From positions 1 through 64,000 of the forward strand of contig CADAIT010000001.1 of assembly GCA_902788095.1 (NCBI GenBank): a DNA stretch of 64,000 nucleotides, given 5' to 3'. Position 1 is the first letter of the stretch. Every line of letters starts with the position of its first letter. A program made the position numbers and the translations under genes. Source of the stretch: an uncultured Bacteroidia bacterium. Lineage in GTDB: Bacteria > Bacteroidota > Bacteroidia > Bacteroidales > UBA932. Shown here one piece after another: positions 54,093-64,000 of the stretch. Under the pieces are notes generated by a model that was not told the DNA's origin, searched no databases, and worked only from the letters and a program-made list of their open reading frames with translations.

Positions 54093-55058
54093 ATGGAACT
54101 AAAATTAGAAAGACCGCTGCTGTTTTTCGATATTGAGAGCACCGGCCTCAATATTCCCACCGACGGCATCATCGAGCTCAGCTTCGTAAAAGTGATGCCC
54201 GGCGGCGAGGTAAAGATAAAAACCTGGAAAATCAAGCCCTGGGATTACGTAAACCACTGCACCATTCCCATCAATCCGCAGGCCTCGGAAGTGAACGGCG
54301 TCAAAGACGAAGACCTGGTGGACTGCCCCAAGTTCATCGAGGTGCTTCCGGAGGTGGCTTCCTGGCTGCAGGACAGCGACCTGGCCGGTTTCAACTCCGC
54401 CAAGTTCGACCTTCCTATGCTGGCGGAGGAAATCGAGCGCGCCCGGGCATACTCCGTTTCGCGCCTGTCCAACGATGCCGCCCGCGAAAAAGCGCAGGAA
54501 ATGATAGACTGCATTGACCGGCTGGACCTGCACGCCTGCCGGATGGTGGATGTCCAGAACATCTTTCACCATTTTGAGCCCAGGAACCTGCGTGCCGCTT
54601 ATCGTTTCTACTGCGGCGGAAAGGATTTTGAGAACGCCCATACGGCGGAGGCGGATACCCTGGCCACCTATGAGGTCCTGAAAGGCCAGCTGGAACGCTA
54701 CCAGGCCCCCACGGAATTCCAGCAGGAAGTACTCAAGAACGACGTGGACGCCCTGTCCAAGATAGGTCCGCGCACCCGCAACGTGGACTTCGCCGGCCGC
54801 CTGATATACAACGATGCCGGAGAAGCGGTCATCAGCTTTGGTAAACACAAGGGAAAAACCGCCCGGGAAGTGTGGAATGCGGAGCCTTCTTACTTTGCCT
54901 GGATAGAGGCCGGAGACTTCACCCTGGACACCAAACGCCAGTTTGCACGGCTCAAGGCCCAGTTCCAGAAGGAGCGGAAAGAGGCACTGAACAGGCCAGC
55001 CACCGCAGACGAGCTGCAGGGACTGGCCAGCAAATTCAACAACGGAAAATTGTTCTAG
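54093..55058 (+). CDS. DnaQ-like 3'-5' exonuclease
   Basis: DEDD exonuclease of 321 aa. Exo I FFDIESTGLN (Asp13, Glu15), Exo II DLAGFNSAKFDLPMLAEEIE and Exo III HTAEADTLATYEVL are all present; the type is DEDDh (HxxEAD). The C-terminal third (SFGKHKGKTAREVW and onward) resembles the small DUF3820-like module often fused to such exonucleases. The position after dnaN suggests a replication or repair proofreading role; it could equally be RNA-directed. It ends in a 4-nt overlap with the convergent TonB-C lipoprotein gene. Confidence 0.88.
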   Translation: MELKLERPLLFFDIESTGLNIPTDGIIELSFVKVMPGGEVKIKTWKIKPWDYVNHCTIPINPQASEVNGVKDEDLVDCPKFIEVLPEVASWLQDSDLAGFNSAKFDLPMLAEEIERARAYSVSRLSNDAAREKAQEMIDCIDRLDLHACRMVDVQNIFHHFEPRNLRAAYRFYCGGKDFENAHTAEADTLATYEVLKGQLERYQAPTEFQQEVLKNDVDALSKIGPRTRNVDFAGRLIYNDAGEAVISFGKHKGKTAREVWNAEPSYFAWIEAGDFTLDTKRQFARLKAQFQKERKEALNRPATADELQGLASKFNNGKLF

Positions 55059-55639
55059 TTGATGCGGAACACGACCGGGAAGGTATAGTTCACAGATACC
55101 GGGACACCGTTCTGGGAACCGGCCTCCCACTTGGGAGAAGCGGAAACGACGCGGACAGCTTCTGCATCCAGGACTTCGTTCACGCCACGCAGCACCTTCA
55201 CGTCCTTCACGTCACCTTCCTTGGAAACGGTGAACTGAAGGATGACCTTTCCGGAGATGTTGTCGTCGATGGCGCTCTGGGGATAGACGATGTTCTCGTT
55301 CACCCACTTGGAGAAGTCGTTGGCGTCACCGCCGTTGAACGTAGGCTTGCTCTCTACCAGGGCAAAAGGAAGGACGGCGTCCGGGTTCTTTTCCAGAGCC
55401 TCGGCAGCGGTTTCCACGATTCCGGCGCTCTGGGCGGCGGAGAGCTTTTCTACAGCCTCGCGGACATCGATTTCTTCAGCAGCCTCTACGGCCTCGATAG
55501 CCTGGGCCATGTCGTCGGCGGCCTTCACGGCAGCTTCTTCGGCTGCATTGGCCTCAGCGGCAGCCTTTTTGGCACCGTTGTTCTTGCAGCCCACCACCAT
55601 GACGGCGGCAACTGCCATAAGCACATAAATTTTACGCAT
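55055..55639 (-). CDS. Lipoprotein with TonB C-terminal domain
   Basis: Lipoprotein of 194 aa: the lipobox is VVGC with Cys18, then an Ala/Glu-rich helical linker (residues 24-75, coiled-coil-like, AANAAEEAAVKAADDMAQ type). A TonB C-terminal domain follows (VYPQSAIDDNISGKVILQFT and PKWEAGSQNGVPVSVNYTFP at about 118-188). Unlike energy-transducing TonB it has no N-terminal membrane helix or proline-rich spacer, so it cannot couple ExbBD directly. A TAATTTTG box at 55679-55686 precedes it. Role unknown. Confidence 0.8.
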   Translation of the reverse strand: MRKIYVLMAVAAVMVVGCKNNGAKKAAAEANAAEEAAVKAADDMAQAIEAVEAAEEIDVREAVEKLSAAQSAGIVETAAEALEKNPDAVLPFALVESKPTFNGGDANDFSKWVNENIVYPQSAIDDNISGKVILQFTVSKEGDVKDVKVLRGVNEVLDAEAVRVVSASPKWEAGSQNGVPVSVNYTFPVVFRIN

Positions 55640-55678
55640 AGTTTATAATAATTGGTTGACGTTCATTTGTTTCTCCTG

Positions 55679-55686
55679 CAAAATTA
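55679..55686 (-). promoter_or_regulatory. -7 promoter box of the TonB-C lipoprotein gene
   Basis: TAATTTTG on the minus strand, 39 nt before ATG 55639; CAGGAGAAAC between them is a plausible ribosome binding site, unusual for this window. Confidence 0.55.
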
Positions 55687-55703
55687 GTAAACTTTTCCGG
55701 AAA

Positions 55704-56693
55704 TTATTCCACCGGAAGGTAATAATTACAGTTTCCGGCGGCGCCGGAGAAAATGGAGACAAGATCCTCCAAAATGAGTTCCGGATGGACGGGGCCGGTT
55801 TCCCAGAAGCGGTTGCCGCCGCCGGGCGTACTTTGCAGCGTATTGTTCCACACCGCCTTCTCCAGTACGGGGAAGGAAGCGAACAAGGGATGAATCCCGC
55901 GAATCTGCTCCCGGGTACGGCACCAGCCGGGATTCAGCCAGATATCGGCCTCCTGCGCATATCGGCAGGCGGTTTCCAGGCTGATGACGGACGATTCCCG
56001 CTTACCCGGAACGGCACCCAAAATCTCACCGCCGGCGTCCCGGACCAGGCGCGTCATGTAATTGTCTCCGCCCGGGATGTACCACTGGTCCGCGTACGGA
56101 ATGTTGATGAGCACTTTCCGCGTCACCGTCGGCCGGACACGGGCCAGATAGCGCTCGCGGACCTGCCGGAAGACGGAATCGGCCAGGGCCTGGCGTCCGG
56201 TCAGCGCACCGAACAGTTTCACGTACTCTGCCCGCGCCAGCGGATGGCTTTCCAGGTGCTCGCTCAATACCAGCGTCCGCACGCCCAGCTCCCGCAGTTT
56301 GGCCAGATACGGCGGTTCCACCGCACCCACATTGTACGTAAGGAAAAGGTCCGGACAGGCCTTGACGATAGCCTCAAAATCCAACGCCGCATCGTACCCC
56401 ACCTCCACGGCCCGGGGCGGGCGTTCGCCCAGAAAAGCCATGCCGGACACGCCCACAACGGTGGAATCCGCGCCGATGGCATGGAGGAACCCCACGTAGG
56501 AGCTGGACATGCACACCAGTGCCTTGAACGGGCCCTGCAAGGTATCCGCTCCCCCGCCCGGCGTGCTCACGAAAACCGTATCCCCGCTGATGCCGAACCA
56601 ACGGGCATATTCCATGTTCATTTCTCCCTGCCCTGCGGGACTTGCACACGAGAGCGTCAGAAGAAAAAGCACGATGAAGCCAAACTGTCTCAT
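55704..56693 (-). CDS. Periplasmic-binding lipoprotein of a metal-chelate/cobalamin ABC importer
   Basis: Class III (BtuF/FhuD-like) solute-binding protein of 329 aa. ATG 56693 opens a lipoprotein signal with Cys16 (LFLLTLSCAS). MEYARWFGI, VGVSGMAF, ACPDLFLTYNVGAVEPPYLA and LRELGVRTLVLSEHLESHPL are typical of the helical-backbone fold. YVGFLHAIGADSTVVG marks the ligand cleft. No permease or ATPase is adjacent, so the cobalamin or iron-chelate role is inferred from the family. A TACCTTTG box (56700-56707) ends 6 nt before the ATG. Confidence 0.85.
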   Translation of the reverse strand: MRQFGFIVLFLLTLSCASPAGQGEMNMEYARWFGISGDTVFVSTPGGGADTLQGPFKALVCMSSSYVGFLHAIGADSTVVGVSGMAFLGERPPRAVEVGYDAALDFEAIVKACPDLFLTYNVGAVEPPYLAKLRELGVRTLVLSEHLESHPLARAEYVKLFGALTGRQALADSVFRQVRERYLARVRPTVTRKVLINIPYADQWYIPGGDNYMTRLVRDAGGEILGAVPGKRESSVISLETACRYAQEADIWLNPGWCRTREQIRGIHPLFASFPVLEKAVWNNTLQSTPGGGNRFWETGPVHPELILEDLVSIFSGAAGNCNYYLPVE

Positions 56694-56699
56694 AGTCTG

Positions 56700-56707
56700 C
56701 AAAGGTA
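56700..56707 (-). promoter_or_regulatory. -7 promoter box of the solute-binding lipoprotein gene
   Basis: TACCTTTG on the minus strand, 6 nt from ATG 56693; the transcript may be leaderless. Confidence 0.6.
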
Positions 56708-56769
56708 CGAAAAAAGTCACAGGTTAGCACGGACAGCCGACCTGTGACATGGCGTTATGAGGGCCGAAA

Positions 56770-58143
56770 CTAAATTTGCTGCACTTTCCGCTTCCAGTTC
56801 AGCAGCGGAAGCAGGAAAGAGATAACGGCGGCACCCAACCAGAAAATACTCACATAGGTGAAGTCATGGGTGCCTGCATCCCCGCTGTCCATGAGCAGGC
56901 CGGTTACAATGTTCTGCAGACCGGCAGCAGCATAAGACGCAATGCCCACAATACCCAGGGCGGCACCGGAAGCTTTCCGCGGCACAAGGTCGATGGCCAT
57001 AAGCCCGCCCAGGAAAGAGATGAGCACGCCTATGGCAATGCCGAACAGCACCATAGCCACGATGTTCACCCACTTTGCCGGTCCACCGTACAGGAACAGC
57101 GCCAGGGCCACAGCCTCCAGGACGCCGGCCACAAAAGCCGGATAGCGGCGGTCACCCTTGAAGATGACATCCGACAGCCAGCCGGACACCACCGTGCCGA
57201 TAATGCCGAAAACGGGATTGATACCGATAACGGTAGCCGCTTCGGCCAGGCTATATCCCTTGGCTTCCTGCAAAAAGATGGTACCCCACTCGTTTATAGC
57301 GTATCGGCTCATATACATGAACGCGCTGGCCGCCGCCAGAATCCATACGCCGGGGTTCTTGATCACCATTTTCTGCATCTGCTTGGTTTCCAGGCGTTTT
57401 CTCTTCTTTTCCTCCGCCGCGGCCAAATGCATATTGCCGCTCTCCCTGTCGTATTCTTCCTGGGTCATCTCGCCTGAGAGCACCTCAATGGCGGGAAGTC
57501 CCTTGGCCTCCGGGGAGTCGTGGAAGAAAAGCAGTACCAGAACAAGGCCGACAATGCCGCCCAGCGCAGCGCCAAAGAAGCCCCACTTCCAACCGAAGGC
57601 GGCCACGATAGAGCCCACGAAGATGAAGGAAAGCCCCTCGCCTATATTATGGGAGGCGCTGAAAATGCCGTAGAACGTTCCCCTTACCTTCAGCGGCATC
57701 CACCGGGACAGGGCGACAATGCAGGCGGGAGCGCCCATGGACTGTGCCCAGCCGTTCAGCGCCCAGAGGACGCAGAAACTCAGAAAGAGCAGGGAATTGG
57801 CGATACCGCCGTTCAGCGCGCTCACGCCCAGCACGCCCATGGCAAAGTTCATGGCCACGGAAATGAGGATGCCCATAGCCATGAAACGCTTGATGTTGGC
57901 ACTGTCGGCCAGGAAACCATTCACCAGTTTTCCTACAGCGTATGTCCAATACAGGCAGGCGCCAATCACACCCAGCTGGGTGGCACTGAGCAGGCCCGCG
58001 TCTATGAGCGGCTGCTTCATCACCCCCATGGACAGGCGGCACACATAGTACAGCGCATAGCCCAGGGTGGCGGCCACAAAAGTCTGCATCCGCTGACGCT
58101 TGTAGGTTTTCAACAGCTTCTGGTCGAGATTAGATTCTGACAT
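56770..58143 (-). CDS. Organophosphate:phosphate antiporter (GlpT/UhpT-like MFS)
   Basis: MFS transporter of the OPA family, 457 aa with twelve membrane helices. RQRMQTFVAATLGYALYYVCRLSMG at the N-terminus (with the conserved Arg-rich and YxxR elements), GPVFGIIG-like NPVFGIIGTVVSGWLSDVI and a long central loop with a charged EEKKRKRLETKQ stretch fit GlpT. It would import glycerol-3-phosphate or a sugar phosphate against phosphate. It ends the SusD-led operon, with 4 nt to the upstream phosphatase-fold gene, which ties it to extracellular phosphoester cleavage. Exact substrate unknown. Confidence 0.88.
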   Translation of the reverse strand: MSESNLDQKLLKTYKRQRMQTFVAATLGYALYYVCRLSMGVMKQPLIDAGLLSATQLGVIGACLYWTYAVGKLVNGFLADSANIKRFMAMGILISVAMNFAMGVLGVSALNGGIANSLLFLSFCVLWALNGWAQSMGAPACIVALSRWMPLKVRGTFYGIFSASHNIGEGLSFIFVGSIVAAFGWKWGFFGAALGGIVGLVLVLLFFHDSPEAKGLPAIEVLSGEMTQEEYDRESGNMHLAAAEEKKRKRLETKQMQKMVIKNPGVWILAAASAFMYMSRYAINEWGTIFLQEAKGYSLAEAATVIGINPVFGIIGTVVSGWLSDVIFKGDRRYPAFVAGVLEAVALALFLYGGPAKWVNIVAMVLFGIAIGVLISFLGGLMAIDLVPRKASGAALGIVGIASYAAAGLQNIVTGLLMDSGDAGTHDFTYVSIFWLGAAVISFLLPLLNWKRKVQQI

Positions 58144-58147
58144 AGGG

Positions 58148-59107
58148 TCAAGGTTTAAGAGTCACAAATACAGGAAAATGGTCGGAAGGATGGCAGAAGT
58201 TGTGGATATCCTTCCCGCGGGGGTCACGGTAACAATCGGCAAAACCTTCTCGGATAACGCGCGCCGAGTTTACCTTTTCAAAGAGCGCAGGAGTTACATA
58301 GACCATGTCGATACGCTTTCCCGAGACAGTGGTTTTCTGGAACTCTCCGGGATAGAACTTCTCAATCACATCGATATACGGTGTTTGGTTGCGCACATAG
58401 TCATGCACCAGGAAGGCGGTGTCGTCCGCGCGCTTCCCATAATGGAAATTATCCACGGACGAAATGGCGTTGAAGTCCCCCGCCATCAGCCAGAGCTGCT
58501 CCCTGGCATCCGGTACGGAGCCGATGGTCTCCCCGCAGATGAACTGCATCTCACGGGCGCGGAAATAGTCGCCGCCGTGCGCTGCGGCATCGGCTTTCTC
58601 GTCCTGAGCCAGATAGGCATACTTCTGGGGCCAGGTGTGCAGGGTGACAAGATTGAGTTCCTCCCCGCCGGGCAGCTCCGCTACCGCCCAACCGGCACCG
58701 TGGGCAACAATGATGTCGGTCCCGTTGCCGGTAATGCGCTTGACAATGCGCAGGGGGTACTTGGAAGTTATCACCTGTGGGAAGGTGTCACGCTTGCCGC
58801 AAATGAGCGTATAGGGATGGCCATAGCGGGCGGCCAAGAGGTCCCAGTTCCAGGGCAGATACTGTTCCTCGGGCATTTGCATCTTCTCGGCCATACCAGT
58901 TTTGTACCGGGACTCAGCCTCGGCCCATATACAGATATCCGGATCCAGTTCCTGCACGAAGGCGACAAAATGGTCATAGTTATCCCCTTGGTCGTGCCAC
59001 ATTCCGTTCTGGATATTCCAGTACAGAATCTTTACTTCCTTACCCTGCCCCCAAGCACATGAGGACAGGGTTAGAAAGCAAATGAAAAGAACTAAAAAGC
59101 GTCTCAT
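58148..59107 (-). CDS. Secreted endonuclease/exonuclease/phosphatase-fold protein
   Basis: DNase I-like metallophosphoesterase of 319 aa. A signal peptide, possibly a lipoprotein signal (LTLSSCAWG, Cys17), precedes ILYWNIQNGMW (about residues 28-38). WAEAESRYK holds the metal-binding Glu, MAGDFNAISS (about 208-217) the Asp-Asn pair and PSDHFPVFVTL the final Asp-His. All expected catalytic residues are present. It could act on phosphoesters released outside the cell. It overlaps the BACON lipoprotein by 4 nt and precedes the GlpT-like transporter, so all three are co-transcribed. Confidence 0.85.
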   Translation of the reverse strand: MRRFLVLFICFLTLSSCAWGQGKEVKILYWNIQNGMWHDQGDNYDHFVAFVQELDPDICIWAEAESRYKTGMAEKMQMPEEQYLPWNWDLLAARYGHPYTLICGKRDTFPQVITSKYPLRIVKRITGNGTDIIVAHGAGWAVAELPGGEELNLVTLHTWPQKYAYLAQDEKADAAAHGGDYFRAREMQFICGETIGSVPDAREQLWLMAGDFNAISSVDNFHYGKRADDTAFLVHDYVRNQTPYIDVIEKFYPGEFQKTTVSGKRIDMVYVTPALFEKVNSARVIREGFADCYRDPRGKDIHNFCHPSDHFPVFVTLKP

Positions 59108-60705
59108 GGGGCAGGCGCTACATAGGTTAGGCCGTCAACTTTGTCCTTGGAGCCGCCGCCGATGTAGTCCATGAAGTTCCCGGCATTGATGTCAAAGACC
59201 TCACCGCCATTCATGCCCAGCGTACCGCTGACAACCACATCCTTGACGTAGGTATATTTGGAGAAATTGGCCACCAGCAGACCGCGGCCGTTGGCGGCAG
59301 TATTCCCAGTGCGGATGTTGCCATAGTTGCCTCCGCCCTCTATGGTGCAGCTGTTGTCGTTCAGCAGGGCCACCATACCACCCGTAGTGGTATTGGAGGC
59401 GCTGGTGGTCAAATCGCCATAGTTGGTGCAGTTAATCAGGCTGCAATCCAGATTCAGGAGCGATACCAGATTGCCGATACGGGCATTGACAAAGTTATTC
59501 ACCTGGCTGGCGTAGTTGGAGCAATCCTTCACGATGGCCGCATTGTTGGCTGTCGCGATCAGACCGCTGCAGCGGCCCAGGTCGGCAGTAATGGTTCCGC
59601 GGACCACGCAATTCTCGATGGTGTTGCGGGCTGTGCTCTTGTCACCGGTTACAAAGCCGGCGATACCGCCAAACATGGGGGCAGTAGCGCCATTCTTGGT
59701 GTTCTCGCCTCCGTTACCAGTAACCTTCACCTCCACTTCACAGTTTTTGATACTGCTTTCCAGGAGATCGCCCTCATTGGAACAAGAATATACGAAACCG
59801 GCAATGCCGCCCACGGAGAAACGCTTGTTGTCGGTCTTGGTGCCTTCCATCTTGATGGTCGCAGTTACATTCACATTCTCGATAGTAGAGGCATATACCG
59901 TACCTACAAGCACACCGGCATCGGCCGTAGCTTCACCGCCGACGGTGAAATCGGCCTCCAGGTTCAGGTTCTTCACGGTTGAGCGGGAAATGGCCCCAAA
60001 GAAGCCGAATGTTCCGCCGTCGGCGACATCGGTCTTGGAGACCTTGAAGCCCTTGATGGTATGACCGCCGCCATTGAACACGCCGGTAAAGTAGCCCCCT
60101 TCGGGGGACGATGCGTTATTGCCGTTGCCGGTCTTTTCCACATTGCCGATAGGAACCCATTCGCTCAGGTCGAACTCGCTGAGGTCCAGGTCGGCGAGGA
60201 GTTCAATCTCCTGCTTGTCGTTGTACCAGCGGTGAATGGGGTCGCCGTTCGCCATGGCTGCCACAAAGTCCATGAACTCATCCTCGTCGGGAATACCGCC
60301 GATGGAAGCATCGGGGTCGATGTAGCCCACATGGCCGAGCTGGCTCACGGAAACCATCAAGGAGGTCATGCCGCCGGAGAACTTGACTTCGCCGCTACGG
60401 GGAGCGGTGTCCGTGCTCTCATTCTTGTAATTGGACTGGAAGGTCAGAGTTACTACGGTAGATTTTCCGCCCCCCACACCCATATTGGGCTCGATGGTAA
60501 TCCAGTCCGGACCCATGGCAATCCAATAAGGGGCATCCGTTGTTACGACAACGGTTTGGCTGCCCGGATTGTTCGCCGCCACTTCCGTGAAACTGGTGAT
60601 GTCCGAGGAAATGGTATACGTCTTGGTTTGTTCCTGTTTTTTGCAGGAAAGCGCCAAAGTCGCTCCGGCCAGGAGCAAGATAAGGCTTTTTTGCAAGGTT
60701 TTCAT
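59104..60705 (-). CDS. BACON lipoprotein with GLUG-like repeats
   Basis: Surface-type lipoprotein of 533 aa, Cys21 in ATLALSCKKQ. An N-terminal BACON beta-sandwich (about residues 30-125; TTDAPYWIAMGPDWITIEPN) is followed from about 135 by a beta-helix-like array of GLUG-type repeats (for example GGYFTGVFNGGGHTIKGFKV, then GFFGAISRSTVKNLNLEADF). BACON is a Bacteroidota carbohydrate- or mucin-binding module; GLUG-like repeats are adhesive or structural. I see no catalytic site. It probably holds glycan at the surface for the neighbouring phosphodiester glycosidase. Confidence 0.85.
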   Translation of the reverse strand: MKTLQKSLILLLAGATLALSCKKQEQTKTYTISSDITSFTEVAANNPGSQTVVVTTDAPYWIAMGPDWITIEPNMGVGGGKSTVVTLTFQSNYKNESTDTAPRSGEVKFSGGMTSLMVSVSQLGHVGYIDPDASIGGIPDEDEFMDFVAAMANGDPIHRWYNDKQEIELLADLDLSEFDLSEWVPIGNVEKTGNGNNASSPEGGYFTGVFNGGGHTIKGFKVSKTDVADGGTFGFFGAISRSTVKNLNLEADFTVGGEATADAGVLVGTVYASTIENVNVTATIKMEGTKTDNKRFSVGGIAGFVYSCSNEGDLLESSIKNCEVEVKVTGNGGENTKNGATAPMFGGIAGFVTGDKSTARNTIENCVVRGTITADLGRCSGLIATANNAAIVKDCSNYASQVNNFVNARIGNLVSLLNLDCSLINCTNYGDLTTSASNTTTGGMVALLNDNSCTIEGGGNYGNIRTGNTAANGRGLLVANFSKYTYVKDVVVSGTLGMNGGEVFDINAGNFMDYIGGGSKDKVDGLTYVAPAP

Positions 60706-60717
60706 ATTTCGATTGAT

Positions 60718-63177
60718 CTATTTTTCTCTGATTAGTATGTAGGAAAGGCAACTGCGCTCGCCCCGGGAATCACACGGTTGGTTCACCACGGCGCCCTTGG
60801 AACCATCCCAGAGCCATACCGTGGAACTTCCCCCACCGTCCAGACGGGTGATGTTGGCACCACCCAGTTTCTTTCCTATCCGGTACATCTCATAGGCTTT
60901 TACGCCCATGCCTTTCCAGCCCTTTCGGCCATCAATTTCCACCAGCCACAGCCGGGAGCCGTCGGCCGACAACACCGGGAAAGTCATGGGGTCGTATTTG
61001 ACCAGCGGAGCTGCGCCGGCAGGAATGGAGGAGGTCCGGTCTTCTCCGCCAACCATAATCTCATACATGGTCGAATCCAGCGTGAGCATGGGTTTGGAGC
61101 TGTCGCCGTCGATAGAAATGGTACAGGACAGTTCTATGGTGTCCCCCACTTTCACCGCATCGGCCCACTCGGCTGCGGGAGTGCCGGAAAGGGCGATACC
61201 CACCCGGCTGGCCGACGTAACGTAGGGCGGTGTCACATTCGTGAACCGTCCGTCATGGATAGAAATCACGCGGGCCCGGGCATAGCCGGTGTTCACCTTC
61301 ATCGGGGATCCCGTGTACTCGCAGATTACATAGAGTACGTTGGGAGCCAACGGGTTGGTGAGAGCAGGCGTACTGGCATACGGCTTTTGCACATAGTACT
61401 TCGTGTAAAGGTTGATGGGTGCTGCCGTAGGACTGGCATGGCGAAGCGTAGTATCATTCACGCTGTAGAAGTTGTACTCCTTGGCAGCGGTCTTCACCTT
61501 TCCGGTGAACTGTTTCTTGCCGGAGGCCGCCGTGCCGTCTGCGTAAACGGCAAAGCCCCACTGGTGATTGCTCAACTGCTTCACGACGGAAGGGTTGTTG
61601 ATGTACACCGGCTCGCCGTTTTCCACGTGGAAGCCACGGGAGATGCCGTCGTTGGAGTCAAAGAAACAGGCGTTGACGCCGTAGAGAATCTTCTCCCCCG
61701 CAGCGCGGCGGCGGTTGCACACATCGGACAGACGTTCCCGCAGTTTGAAGCCGTTGTTGTTGTTCCCGTTCCCGTTGGGATTGGGAATCATGTCACCGGC
61801 CAGGGCCCCGACAACCTCCACGTTCGCGTTTTTCAGGTCCACTTCCAGCACATGCATGGTGCGCGGAACATTCGTGAACGAATACTTGGTATACACCGCG
61901 CCGGAGGCCAGTTCCCGGGTCTCCATTACGGTCCAGTCGTAATAGGCGTCCAGGGTCCAGTCTACGTTGTTGTTCATGCCCGGATTCACGGAGTCGTCGT
62001 CATACAGGTTGAAGTTGTTCAGGGGCTCTACCACGGCATTCACCAGCATGGCAGGGTGCTCCATGTCGGCCACAAAACCGTATCCGGTATTGCCGATGAA
62101 GTTCTCGGCGGTCTGGTTGTAGGAGCATCCCCAGCCCGGGCCCAGTTTCCTGTCGTCCGAATACGGCCCCAGAATGGCGCCGCGATTGACGCAGCGGCTT
62201 ACGGTTCCCATATTGTATCCGACAAGGCCGCCTTCCCGGCAAGCGGTTTTCACGCTGATATCGCCGTTGTTGGTACATCCCTTGGCGGCGGTGTCGCCGC
62301 CCAACAGGCAAGCTGCGTCGGTACGGCCTGCAATGCCGCCCACGAACAGGTTGCTTCCGGACGAGAAACTGCCGTCCAAGGTAATGGACACATTGTTGGT
62401 TACCCCTTCCAGAGTGACACCTATAGCCCGACCGACAATGCCGCCAACGGCAATATTGCCGGAAGGTGCGCCTGTGAAGACCACCTTATTGCCGCTTTCG
62501 CCTACATTGAGGCGGCGGATGGTAGCCCCATTCACACAACCAAACAGGCCGGCATCCGGGTACTTGGCAAGGTCCACCGTCCAGGAAATGTTCTTGATGG
62601 TGAACCGGGAACCATCCACATTGTGTTTCAGCGGAGAAGAAGCCGTGCCGACTGGCACCCATTCCTTGATGGAAGAAGCATCGATGTCGGCGGTGAACTT
62701 GACTTCGCCGTCTATCAGGTACTGGTTGATGGAGTATCCGGCCTCGCCATTTACGGCCCGGGCAAAGCCCAGCAGGTCTTCTGCAGAACCGATTCCCCGT
62801 TTGACGGTCCCGCTGCCGGCGGCCTGTTTCAGGGTGATTTCGGCCTTCTTTCCGTCCAGCGTGGAAACAGTGACCACACCTGTACGTTCGGCGGTCTCCT
62901 TATTTTCCTCTACAGAGACCGTGAGGGTGGAGGCCTGCGTGGAAGAGCCCTTTCCGGAAGCGGTGGACATCTTAATCCATGCAACCGAACTCCGGGCATA
63001 CCAGTCGCTTGAAGACAGGACGGTAAATGCCTTGTTTTCGCCCAGTGCAATCACCTCTGCGGAGGTGGGTGTAACCGTGAATGTCGCCTCCGACGCCGGC
63101 TTCTCTTCCCCGCCGCATGCGACGAGGAAGAGGGCCGAAACCGTCAGAATAACACTTTTAAGCAAATACCTATTCAT
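60718..63177 (-). CDS. Phosphodiester glycosidase (NAGPA family) lipoprotein with BACON and GLUG-like repeats
   Basis: Lipoprotein of 819 aa; ATG 63177 opens the signal with Cys21 (ALFLVACGG). A BACON-like domain (about residues 30-115) and a GLUG-like repeat region (about 130-330) lead to a C-terminal phosphodiester glycosidase domain (about 390-819). LDGGGSSTVWLWDG followed by GERSC near the C-terminus is the NAGPA signature; VNACFFDSNDGISRGFHVEN and YGMG-like GWKGMGVKAYEM lie before it. The family hydrolyses GlcNAc-1-phosphodiesters. The order fused here (binding modules, then catalytic domain) mirrors the next lipoprotein without its enzyme. It starts 8 nt inside the SusD gene. Confidence 0.88.
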   Translation of the reverse strand: MNRYLLKSVILTVSALFLVACGGEEKPASEATFTVTPTSAEVIALGENKAFTVLSSSDWYARSSVAWIKMSTASGKGSSTQASTLTVSVEENKETAERTGVVTVSTLDGKKAEITLKQAAGSGTVKRGIGSAEDLLGFARAVNGEAGYSINQYLIDGEVKFTADIDASSIKEWVPVGTASSPLKHNVDGSRFTIKNISWTVDLAKYPDAGLFGCVNGATIRRLNVGESGNKVVFTGAPSGNIAVGGIVGRAIGVTLEGVTNNVSITLDGSFSSGSNLFVGGIAGRTDAACLLGGDTAAKGCTNNGDISVKTACREGGLVGYNMGTVSRCVNRGAILGPYSDDRKLGPGWGCSYNQTAENFIGNTGYGFVADMEHPAMLVNAVVEPLNNFNLYDDDSVNPGMNNNVDWTLDAYYDWTVMETRELASGAVYTKYSFTNVPRTMHVLEVDLKNANVEVVGALAGDMIPNPNGNGNNNNGFKLRERLSDVCNRRRAAGEKILYGVNACFFDSNDGISRGFHVENGEPVYINNPSVVKQLSNHQWGFAVYADGTAASGKKQFTGKVKTAAKEYNFYSVNDTTLRHASPTAAPINLYTKYYVQKPYASTPALTNPLAPNVLYVICEYTGSPMKVNTGYARARVISIHDGRFTNVTPPYVTSASRVGIALSGTPAAEWADAVKVGDTIELSCTISIDGDSSKPMLTLDSTMYEIMVGGEDRTSSIPAGAAPLVKYDPMTFPVLSADGSRLWLVEIDGRKGWKGMGVKAYEMYRIGKKLGGANITRLDGGGSSTVWLWDGSKGAVVNQPCDSRGERSCLSYILIREK

Positions 63178-64000
63178 TGGAAGTAGAATCATAACCGTCA
63201 TTCCAGCCCGGATTCTGCGTCAGGGCGCCACCGGTGATAGAACGCTCGCTAACCGGAATGGGCCACAGGTAGTCGCGGCCTTCCACCCAGTCGTAATCCT
63301 CGCTGGCAAAGTAAGTGAGATAGCCGTGATCCCCTTCGGAAAGTGTATAGTTCGAGCCCAGTTCAATCTGGTTGGTGGCCTTCACGGAAGTGGTGGGTTT
63401 CTCCCCTTCGTACAACAAGATATCCATCTTGCCGTCACCGTCCATGTCAAACTCGCCAAGGCTGGGGAAATAGCAACCGCCAAAACCGCCTACGCTCTTG
63501 GGAGTAAGCCACTTGCCTTCACCCCAGCGCAGCAGGTCCCACTGACGGAAGCCCTCTGCGATGAGTTCTACGGCACGCTCACGGCGAATTTCCAGAATAG
63601 CAGCCTTCTGACTACCCTTGGCATGGGGATAGTATTCCTCCATCAGCGGATCCACGGTGGCGGGAACGGTGCCCATGGCGGGCATGCCCACGCGGGCGCG
63701 GATGACGTCAATGGTAGCAACCACATCGGGGTCGGTAAGTTCTCCCAATTCAGCCTTCGCTTCTGCGTAGTTCAGCAACACCTCGGCATAACGGAAAAGC
63801 GGGTAGTCCGTGGTGGAGGTGGTAGCCGTTTCATGGGAAGAATCGGAAATATATTTGATGATACGATAGCCATTGAAGGTACGGTCAAAGGCCAATTCTT
63901 CGTGTTCAGTACCGTCTAAAGCCTTGTAGGAAGGGCTATGCAGGGTCTGGGCCATACGCGGGTCGCGGTTGGTGAAAGCCTCCTGGTAAGACAGGGTCTC
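63170..64000 (-). CDS. SusD/RagB-family glycan-binding lipoprotein, C-terminal part
   Basis: Only the last 276 codons are in the window; the gene continues beyond 64000. SLSYQEAF-type TLSYQEAFTNRDPRMAQTLH at the partial start, LFRYAEVLLNYAEAKAELGE (about 60 residues in), RRERAVELIAEGFRQWDLLR and the terminal YLWPIPVSERSITGGALTQN with NPGWNDGY are classic SusD. It would bind a glycan at the cell surface with a SusC/TonB-dependent channel expected just beyond 64000. It leads, within this window, a five-gene operon ending with a GlpT-like antiporter. Confidence 0.95.
   Translation of the reverse strand, partial: ETLSYQEAFTNRDPRMAQTLHSPSYKALDGTEHEELAFDRTFNGYRIIKYISDSSHETATTSTTDYPLFRYAEVLLNYAEAKAELGELTDPDVVATIDVIRARVGMPAMGTVPATVDPLMEEYYPHAKGSQKAAILEIRRERAVELIAEGFRQWDLLRWGEGKWLTPKSVGGFGGCYFPSLGEFDMDGDGKMDILLYEGEKPTTSVKATNQIELGSNYTLSEGDHGYLTYFASEDYDWVEGRDYLWPIPVSERSITGGALTQNPGWNDGYDSTSNE

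Follow-up and report, generated by a model that had tools for sequence, protein, structure and literature searches.

A conserved SusCD locus type of Bacteroidales that carries predicted phosphodiesterases and an organophosphate transporter

What does a SusCD locus feed on when no carbohydrate-active enzyme (CAZyme) is seen in it? SusCD loci are usually taken to be harvesters of sugar polymers, and their substrates are guessed from their CAZymes. The question was raised by a gene run at the right-hand end of a 64,000-nucleotide window of DNA from an uncultured Bacteroidia bacterium (bases 1–64000 of the 289,915-base contig CADAIT010000001.1; genome of 2.16 Mb, 83% complete). An earlier note, made from the letters of the window, had read five genes there as a SusD-led operon for cutting phosphodiesters outside the cell and importing the released organophosphate. 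Beyond 64000, where positions continue the window numbering on the same contig, we found an adjacent susC/susD pair and further phosphoesterases, and the locus type, which is built like a polysaccharide utilization locus (PUL) and carries organophosphate-breakdown enzymes, is real and conserved. We give about an even chance to the reading that it is a SusCD uptake locus cutting phosphodiester rather than glycosidic bonds, in which a glycerol-phosphate or sugar-phosphate diester would be converted to glycerol-3-phosphate and imported through an antiporter as carbon.

The run comprised 11 co-directional genes on the minus strand (56770–81874). The five genes of the earlier note (SusD, NAGPA, BACON/GLUG, EEP, and GlpT-type) were all found where it had placed them, on the minus strand and with matching families, and form the tail end. 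The run is not led by SusD, as SusC (65018–68350) and five more genes precede it, up to the GDPD gene (80906–81874). From first gene to last, the run reads as follows.

81874–80906, minus strand: GDPD (Pfam GDPD E 4e-22, DUF4996 E 5e-25), first gene of the run
80887–76754, minus strand: GLUG-type/DUF4886 lipoprotein of 1377 residues (DUF4886 E 2e-27)
76750–73517, minus strand: EEP-bearing fusion lipoprotein of 1077 residues (Exo_endo_phos E 2e-5; first half fimbrillin-like by eye)
73318–71099, minus strand: GLUG-type lipoprotein of 739 residues (no Pfam family; assigned by likeness to other GLUG proteins)
70930–68369, minus strand: GLUG-type lipoprotein of 853 residues (no Pfam family; assigned in the same way)
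68350–65018, minus strand: SusC of 1110 residues (TIGR04056 E 2.5e-239)
65011–63170, minus strand: SusD-like lipoprotein of 613 residues (Pfam SusD_RagB PF07980 E 1e-38; the window holds 63170–64000)
60718–63177 (alternative start 63201), minus strand: NAGPA lipoprotein with BACON, GLUG-like, and NAGPA regions (Pfam NAGPA and BACON)
59104–60705, minus strand: GLUG lipoprotein with a BACON-like region (GLUG E 3e-5, over cut-off; BACON E 7e-5, just below)
58148–59107, minus strand: EEP-fold lipoprotein (Pfam Exo_endo_phos E 3e-8)
56770–58143, minus strand: GlpT/UhpT-type transporter (Pfam MFS_1 E 2e-42), last gene of the run

The junctions across the run were −8 to +18 nt, apart from two wider ones (198 and 168 nt). 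Those of the five tail genes, described earlier as 4–12 nt, measured +4, −4, +12, and −8 nt, two of them being overlaps. SusC and SusD were 6 nt apart, as an adjacent pair of the PUL type. The susC gene and additional phosphoesterases sought beyond 64000 were both present, the latter as a second EEP domain and the GDPD, a further phosphodiesterase class. Pfam recognized neither a glycoside hydrolase nor a polysaccharide lyase among the 11 proteins, so that the expectation of no ordinary CAZymes to the right of 64000 was borne out as far as 81,874. The search for a sigma/anti-sigma pair had a divided outcome: pairs were present in related loci, and neither a pair nor another regulator was found beside this copy when the genes upstream of the GDPD gene (CYTH, cytidylyltransferase-like, and guanylate kinase genes) were read. 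About 195 nt ahead of the GDPD start lies TATATTTG, which we take to fit the Bacteroides −7 box consensus. Scans of 55500–64000 for sigma-70-type promoters and terminators stayed at chance level, and an Rfam scan of the 20 kb beyond the window gave no match. Treating the GlpT-type gene as a separate unit was rejected by its 4-nt gap to the EEP gene and by the recurrence of this neighborhood in other genomes. Downstream on the same strand are genes for a Peripla_BP_2 lipoprotein (55704–56720, 49 nt past the GlpT-type gene) and a TonB C-terminal protein (55055–55639). They look separate from the run; in a related locus (L032), another gene lies in between.

The NAGPA domain matched only the last part of its protein (PF09992, E 6e-13; 49.8 bits against a cut-off of 25), together with BACON (E 2e-10). 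Searched against solved chains using phmmer, the protein gave no match at 0.001; a profile built from 30 homologues did better, retrieving 3ohg, a DUF2233 protein, at E 5e-19 and the animal enzyme NAGPA (6pki) at E 3e-7, by which a spurious domain match was rejected. The structure model (predicted local distance difference test, pLDDT, of 92) matched 5h3k, 6ozd, 3ohg, and NAGPA chains, and the DGGGS motif was invariant in the 30 homologues. The protein is thus like the DUF2233/NAGPA family (3ohg, BACOVA_00430, and animal NAGPA) in family profile, fold, and DGR/DGGGS motifs, and differs from it in being fused to BACON and GLUG-like regions and in standing behind SusD amid phosphoesterase genes; its activity is a predicted one. 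A third NAGPA gene of this genome is located on another contig (C3, 100009–100377).

The EEP lipoprotein scored 34.2 bits against a cut-off of 24.5 (PF03372). No solved chain was matched by phmmer at 0.01, and the profile search again did better, the best solved relatives being LINE-1 endonucleases (E 4e-6). Seven columns, N31, E63, H157, D211, N213, D309, and H310, were invariant in 55 sequences and kept in the EEP domain of the 1077-residue fusion, and we take these residues to be catalytic. The folds closest to the model (pLDDT 93) were those of AP endonucleases, LINE-1 endonuclease, and ExoIII, with query TM-scores of 0.51–0.59, and the Bacteroides protein 3mpr ranked 36 among the matches. 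The protein is a predicted phosphodiesterase or phosphatase. A lipobox was found in 56 of 83 EEP genes, 21 of the 56 having an acidic residue after the Cys; in this copy of the locus, acidic residues directly after the Cys were absent from EEP and GDPD and present in NAGPA. EEP genes outside such loci were seen next to Tricorn-type S41 peptidases (L089 and L099) and adjoining a histidine kinase that has a stretch resembling a transporter (L105).

The GDPD protein exceeded its cut-off widely (PF03009, 80 bits against 23.6), had a solved relative (3i10, E 5e-55), and carried VHRGDW, EIDI, and CHDSN, that is, the HRG...ExD...H pattern, presumably its catalytic motif. The GNS.T and DG.H motifs of DUF4886, which we read as those of an SGNH-type esterase, were present in 17 of 17 homologues. 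The GLUG lipoprotein at 59104–60705 is a predicted surface binding protein, and a homologue follows NAGPA in most related runs.

For the transporter, the NCBIfam models of PgtP, UhpC, and GlpT ranked at the top, every one under its cut-off, as was UhpT; the GlpT equivalog model TIGR00712 gave 197 bits against a cut-off of 633. The best solved chain was GlpT itself (1pw4, E 9e-39), followed by SLC37A4, and the protein aligned with 1pw4 at the Arg pair, the Lys, and the His that make up the GlpT site. Assuming the roles of these residues in substrate binding, the alignment places the protein in the organophosphate:phosphate antiporter family at large, as judged from sequence.

The conservation of the locus was surveyed by scanning a species-genome collection with the EEP alignment, which yielded 399 relatives; the best 80 were fetched as loci in views of up to 10 kb on each side, and GDPD and GlpT often fell outside these views. 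By title, nearly all of the best 80 were Bacteroidales or Bacteroidia, many being rumen or gut metagenome-assembled genomes. In 39 of the 80, the EEP gene stood in one co-directional run with SusC/D. In this count, the L035 SusC seems to open another locus, the L060 run was drawn across a minus-strand gene by mistake, and L062 was scored as lacking SusC/D despite SusC/D and two metallophosphatases nearby. These 39 runs contained NAGPA (29), GLUG proteins (29), DUF4886 (11), sigma (10), anti-sigma (10), and MINPP-type phosphatases (6). Pfam searches of 36 accessory proteins of related loci returned DUF4886 (8), EEP (6), and GLUG (3), with one each of GH88 (L035), GDSL, fn3, and a fimbrillin-like domain. 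A shorter SusC–SusD–EEP form with no NAGPA in view was observed in Parabacteroides and others (L085, L087, L094, L096, L097, L098, and L101). In L067, L072, L074, L075, L076, L077, L078, and L082, the EEP gene is flanked by the sigma and anti-sigma genes, before SusC, as if it were involved in sensing.

Linkage was counted in this genome and 32 others (behind 33 loci) chosen for NAGPA, SusC/D, or related parts at the EEP locus. GlpT, NAGPA, EEP, GDPD, and SusD were searched there, and a further genome (G096) was covered for GDPD, EEP, and SusD but not for NAGPA and GlpT. All matches were used for SusD (147), EEP (84), and NAGPA (133), 11 weak GDPD matches of 47 and 57 GlpT matches of 114 (all at 27–34% identity) were dropped, split matches were merged in G152, G153, and G177, and two transporters of this genome were added. 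NAGPA lay within 3.5 kb on the same strand of 33 of the 37 SusD homologues at 43% identity or more, within 15 kb of 17 of the 57 at 38–42%, and beside none of the 53 below 38% (two of these, in G096, could not be judged), identity bands that do not amount to a tree. Of 36 GDPD genes (one of them, in G096, could not be judged), 9 had GlpT on their own strand no more than 1 kb away and 15 had EEP or NAGPA on their own strand no more than 30 kb away, against 0.06 and 2.8 expected from even placement in 2.4 Mb, with close relatives being non-independent. Among GlpT homologues, 20 of the 34 with at least 60% identity and 3 of the 22 below it had GDPD, EEP, or NAGPA on their own strand no more than 15 kb away. 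The linkage in other genomes expected by the earlier note was therefore found for SusD–NAGPA–EEP, and GlpT was linked as well.

The locus type is not common at large. An EEP match was obtained in 9 of 149 genomes of the same family and, under strict scoring of seven candidates per genome, which makes the number a lower bound, in at least 4 of 295 genomes of the order, this genome included in both; seven EEP relatives in the family had no SusC/D nearby, two of them on short contigs.

Seven loci picked for a GDPD gene on the same contig as EEP were read as a whole, six of them of the main type and one (G163) different. In G177 and G179, the order was sigma, EEP, anti-sigma, SusC, SusD, NAGPA, GLUG, GLUG/DUF4886, GDPD, and GlpT, with a relative of S1/P1 nuclease between GDPD and GlpT in G179. 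G176 had the G177 order with GDPD as the last gene, and G173 read EEP, EEP, SusC, SusD, NAGPA, GLUG, GDPD, and GlpT. G157 starts with GDPD, sigma, anti-sigma, and EEP and ends with MINPP, and the last genes of G171 are EEP, GDPD, and a 70-residue GlpT remnant. Three of the six (G173, G177, and G179) thus end in a GDPD–GlpT neighborhood. Every internal open reading frame (ORF) of at least 110 residues was labeled in the six loci. The accessory proteins contained DUF4886, DUF4988, EEP, GLUG, BACON, FecR, and sigma domains, and no glycosidase was found in the Pfam scans, which covered all of them except the G176 DUF4886 protein. A 70-residue GlpT remnant adjoining GDPD (L121, 5689–5901) looks like transporter loss. 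The locus or its EEP gene directly followed ribosomal S4–RpoA–L17 in L067, L070, L072, L075, L082, G173, G176, and G177 (Pfam-checked in G176 only), and this recurring position hints at vertical inheritance or a favored insertion site.

A MINPP-type phosphatase was observed in 11 of the 80 loci (two being fragments, L044 and L049), GlpT in 4, and both together in none within the limited view. The L035 copy was related to the solved 7r5y and BtMINPP (4fdt/5cx4) by phmmer and received no family name from Pfam, which named the MINPP family in L038 (His_Phos_2) and L099; in the latter, a single ORF joins a MINPP stretch (63–463) to an EEP stretch (472–749, below the Pfam cut-off). There thus seem to be two routes for the phosphomonoester in this locus type: antiporter import or dephosphorylation.

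This genome has a second SusCD locus, 7 kb from the first run on the same contig (C1, 88771–109001), with a sigma/FecR pair, NAGPA, IPT/NHL lipoproteins, EEP, an EEP fusion, a GDSL esterase, GH3, and a GlpT relative (48% identity). The NHL-type locus of G163, with EEPs, an SGNH esterase, GH3, GDPD, and GlpT, is similar to it, with GDPD added. The second locus suggests a family of such loci, in which a glycosidase would be included where sugars decorate the substrate.

From the gene content, the domains, the kept catalytic residues, and the linkage, we infer the following order of steps. SusD, the BACON/GLUG proteins, and the NAGPA protein would capture, on the cell surface, a polymer or oligomer with glycerol-phosphate and probably sugar-1-phosphate diester links. 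NAGPA would cleave the sugar-1-phosphodiester, the DUF4886 protein would strip ester groups, and SusC would bring the fragments in, where EEP proteins and GDPD, presumably periplasmic, would trim them to glycerol-3-phosphate. The GlpT-type antiporter would then trade glycerol-3-phosphate for inorganic phosphate. This product is proposed because it fits both GDPD and the transporter, and a glycerol phosphate is favored over a bare sugar-1-phosphate polymer because of GDPD and the GDPD–GlpT pairs. Escherichia coli GlpT swaps its substrate for phosphate, and such antiporters make no net phosphate gain; the locus would therefore serve carbon supply.

As the natural substrate, a teichoic-acid-like poly(glycerol phosphate) is favored as the most fitting, because its anchor GlcNAc-alpha-1-P-6-MurNAc resembles the NAGPA substrate GlcNAc-alpha-1-P-6-mannose. 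Such a polymer would account for most parts: GDPD and EEP for the backbone, NAGPA for the sugar-1-phosphate anchor, DUF4886 for the esters, and SusCD and GLUG proteins for the polymer size. We regard as less likely than not the more specific proposal that this is a class of SusCD loci harvesting Gram-positive teichoic acids as food, in which NAGPA would unhook the polymer at its GlcNAc-1-phosphate anchor, the SGNH protein would de-esterify it, GDPD and EEP would shorten the poly(glycerol phosphate), and the GlpT-type transporter would import glycerol-3-phosphate as carbon.

Several observations weigh against the favored explanation of the locus. NCBIfam does not separate GlpT, UhpT, and PgtP for the transporter. 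Among the 39 SusC/D runs, the views of up to 10 kb contained GlpT in 3 and GDPD in 2, the loci of G157, G171, and G176 have no intact GlpT, and related loci without GlpT show a MINPP-type phosphatase or nothing visible in its place. No SusC/D was in the run in 41 of the 80 EEP loci, by which EEP alone was rejected as a locus marker. Both the EEP profile and the EEP model were nearest to nucleases, and the lipobox survey, a weak one, does not firmly put EEP in the periplasm. Only a GpsA-type enzyme, and none of the GlpD/GlpA type (DAO_C), was found in this genome, which is 83% complete; this speaks against carbon supply in any form. This copy of the locus also lacks the glycosidase that a glycosylated teichoic acid would call for. 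The gene content (no CAZyme, GDPD, and a second EEP domain) fits the earlier proposal of outside phosphodiester cutting and organophosphate import; GlpT is not part of all related loci.

It seems unlikely that the substrate is not a wall polymer but small glycerophosphodiesters from membrane lipids, such as deacylated phospholipid or glycosylphosphatidylinositol-type headgroups. The DUF4886 protein would then deacylate, GDPD would free glycerol-3-phosphate, the antiporter would import it, and a MINPP-type enzyme would handle inositol phosphates where present, for which GDPD and the GDPD–GlpT pairs speak, as do the 11 SusC/D runs (of 39) that carry SGNH-like DUF4886 and the 11 loci (of 80) that carry BtMINPP relatives. 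However, small headgroups would not call for a SusCD pair together with NAGPA and several large GLUG proteins, and phospholipid headgroups account for GDPD, the transporter, and DUF4886 but not for NAGPA, which acts on sugar-1-phosphates and is not known to act on inositol or glycerol. An extracellular nucleic acid as the target, with the EEPs as nucleases, would match the LINE-1 endonuclease hits of the EEP profile (E 4e-6), the proximity of its model to AP endonucleases, LINE-1 endonuclease, and ExoIII, and the S1/P1 nuclease in G096. It is highly improbable, as no part in DNA use is known for NAGPA, GDPD, or a GlpT-type transporter, and Pfam recognized neither a nucleotidase nor a nucleoside transporter among the proteins of the run.

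Phosphate scavenging of the PusCD kind, in which phosphorus would be collected from organic phosphates, is in our view quite unlikely. The last gene of the run encodes a transporter of the organophosphate:phosphate antiporter family, and exchange of the kind shown for GlpT yields no net phosphate; rumen fluid is rich in phosphate; and the sigma/FecR pair of related loci resembles that of glycan loci, though it is compatible with phosphate control. Nevertheless, an S1/P1 nuclease stands beside EEP and GDPD in G096, a relative of that nuclease is present in G179, and MINPP occurs in some loci. The building plan also agrees with that of the phosphate utilization systems (PUS) of Flavobacterium johnsoniae, of which passages of PMC8115612 describe SusCD with phosphodiesterases, in some cases with inner-membrane organic-phosphate transporters. 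A very unlikely alternative is that the locus serves to use a glycan, of host or bacterial origin, that is decorated with phosphodiesters, the glycosidases being encoded elsewhere: the second SusCD locus of this genome and the G163 locus have GH3 with EEP and a GlpT relative (G163 also GDPD), and GH88 is present in the L035 run, though it may belong to a following locus, while no glycosidase was seen in the seven loci of the main type, this one included.

The PUS/PusCD systems of F. johnsoniae and relatives are the closest known kind found. Passages of Lidbury et al. (2020; PMC8115612) describe them as SusCD induced by low phosphate, with phosphodiesterases and with inner-membrane organic-phosphate transporters beside PusCD. 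They are alike in having a SusCD-like pair beside phosphodiesterases or phosphomonoesterases that replace CAZymes and organic phosphate as the target, and our run likewise combines SusCD with phosphodiesterases (GDPD, two EEP domains, and NAGPA). According to the same passages, PUS loci were identified through low-phosphate induction, whereas the present locus is known from its genes, and it differs in that its last gene encodes a transporter of the antiporter family, a feature suggestive of carbon use. The terms NAGPA, GLUG, GlpT, teichoic, antiport, and glycerol-3-phosphate are absent from the main text of that paper, which may use other names. In F. johnsoniae, a passage of PMC8812569 (on PafA) states that sugar phosphates support growth as a carbon source and phosphoglycerol does not. 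Background on teichoic-acid phosphoesterases and NAGPA is given in parts of PMC11488536 and PMC12419801. With the PULs of Bacteroidota, the locus shares SusC, SusD, surface lipoproteins, a co-directional run, and, in its relatives, the sigma/FecR pair, but it shows phosphoesterases and an organophosphate transporter where PULs have glycoside hydrolases or polysaccharide lyases. The GlpQ-type GDPD with GlpT of Proteobacteria and Bacillota takes glycerophosphodiesters to glycerol-3-phosphate for antiport in the same way; here, the two are joined to outer-membrane capture by SusCD. No report of a SusCD locus with NAGPA, GDPD, and GlpT was found among the papers listed from the open-access literature, a scope outside which most subscription papers lie.

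A conserved type of SusCD locus that shows no CAZymes but has NAGPA, GDPD, EEP, and an organophosphate transporter points to a separate diet of phosphate-linked polymers or headgroups, and its gut and rumen carriers probably use phosphate-linked material as food, for example polymers from the walls of other bacteria. The locus type also provides a concrete genomic setting for testing bacterial NAGPA enzymes. If true, this diet would explain one fate of teichoic acids and related material in the rumen and gut. Should teichoic acids be the food, the locus would be the glycerol-phosphate counterpart of glycan utilization loci, and its Bacteroidales carriers would be consumers of the walls of their Gram-positive neighbors.

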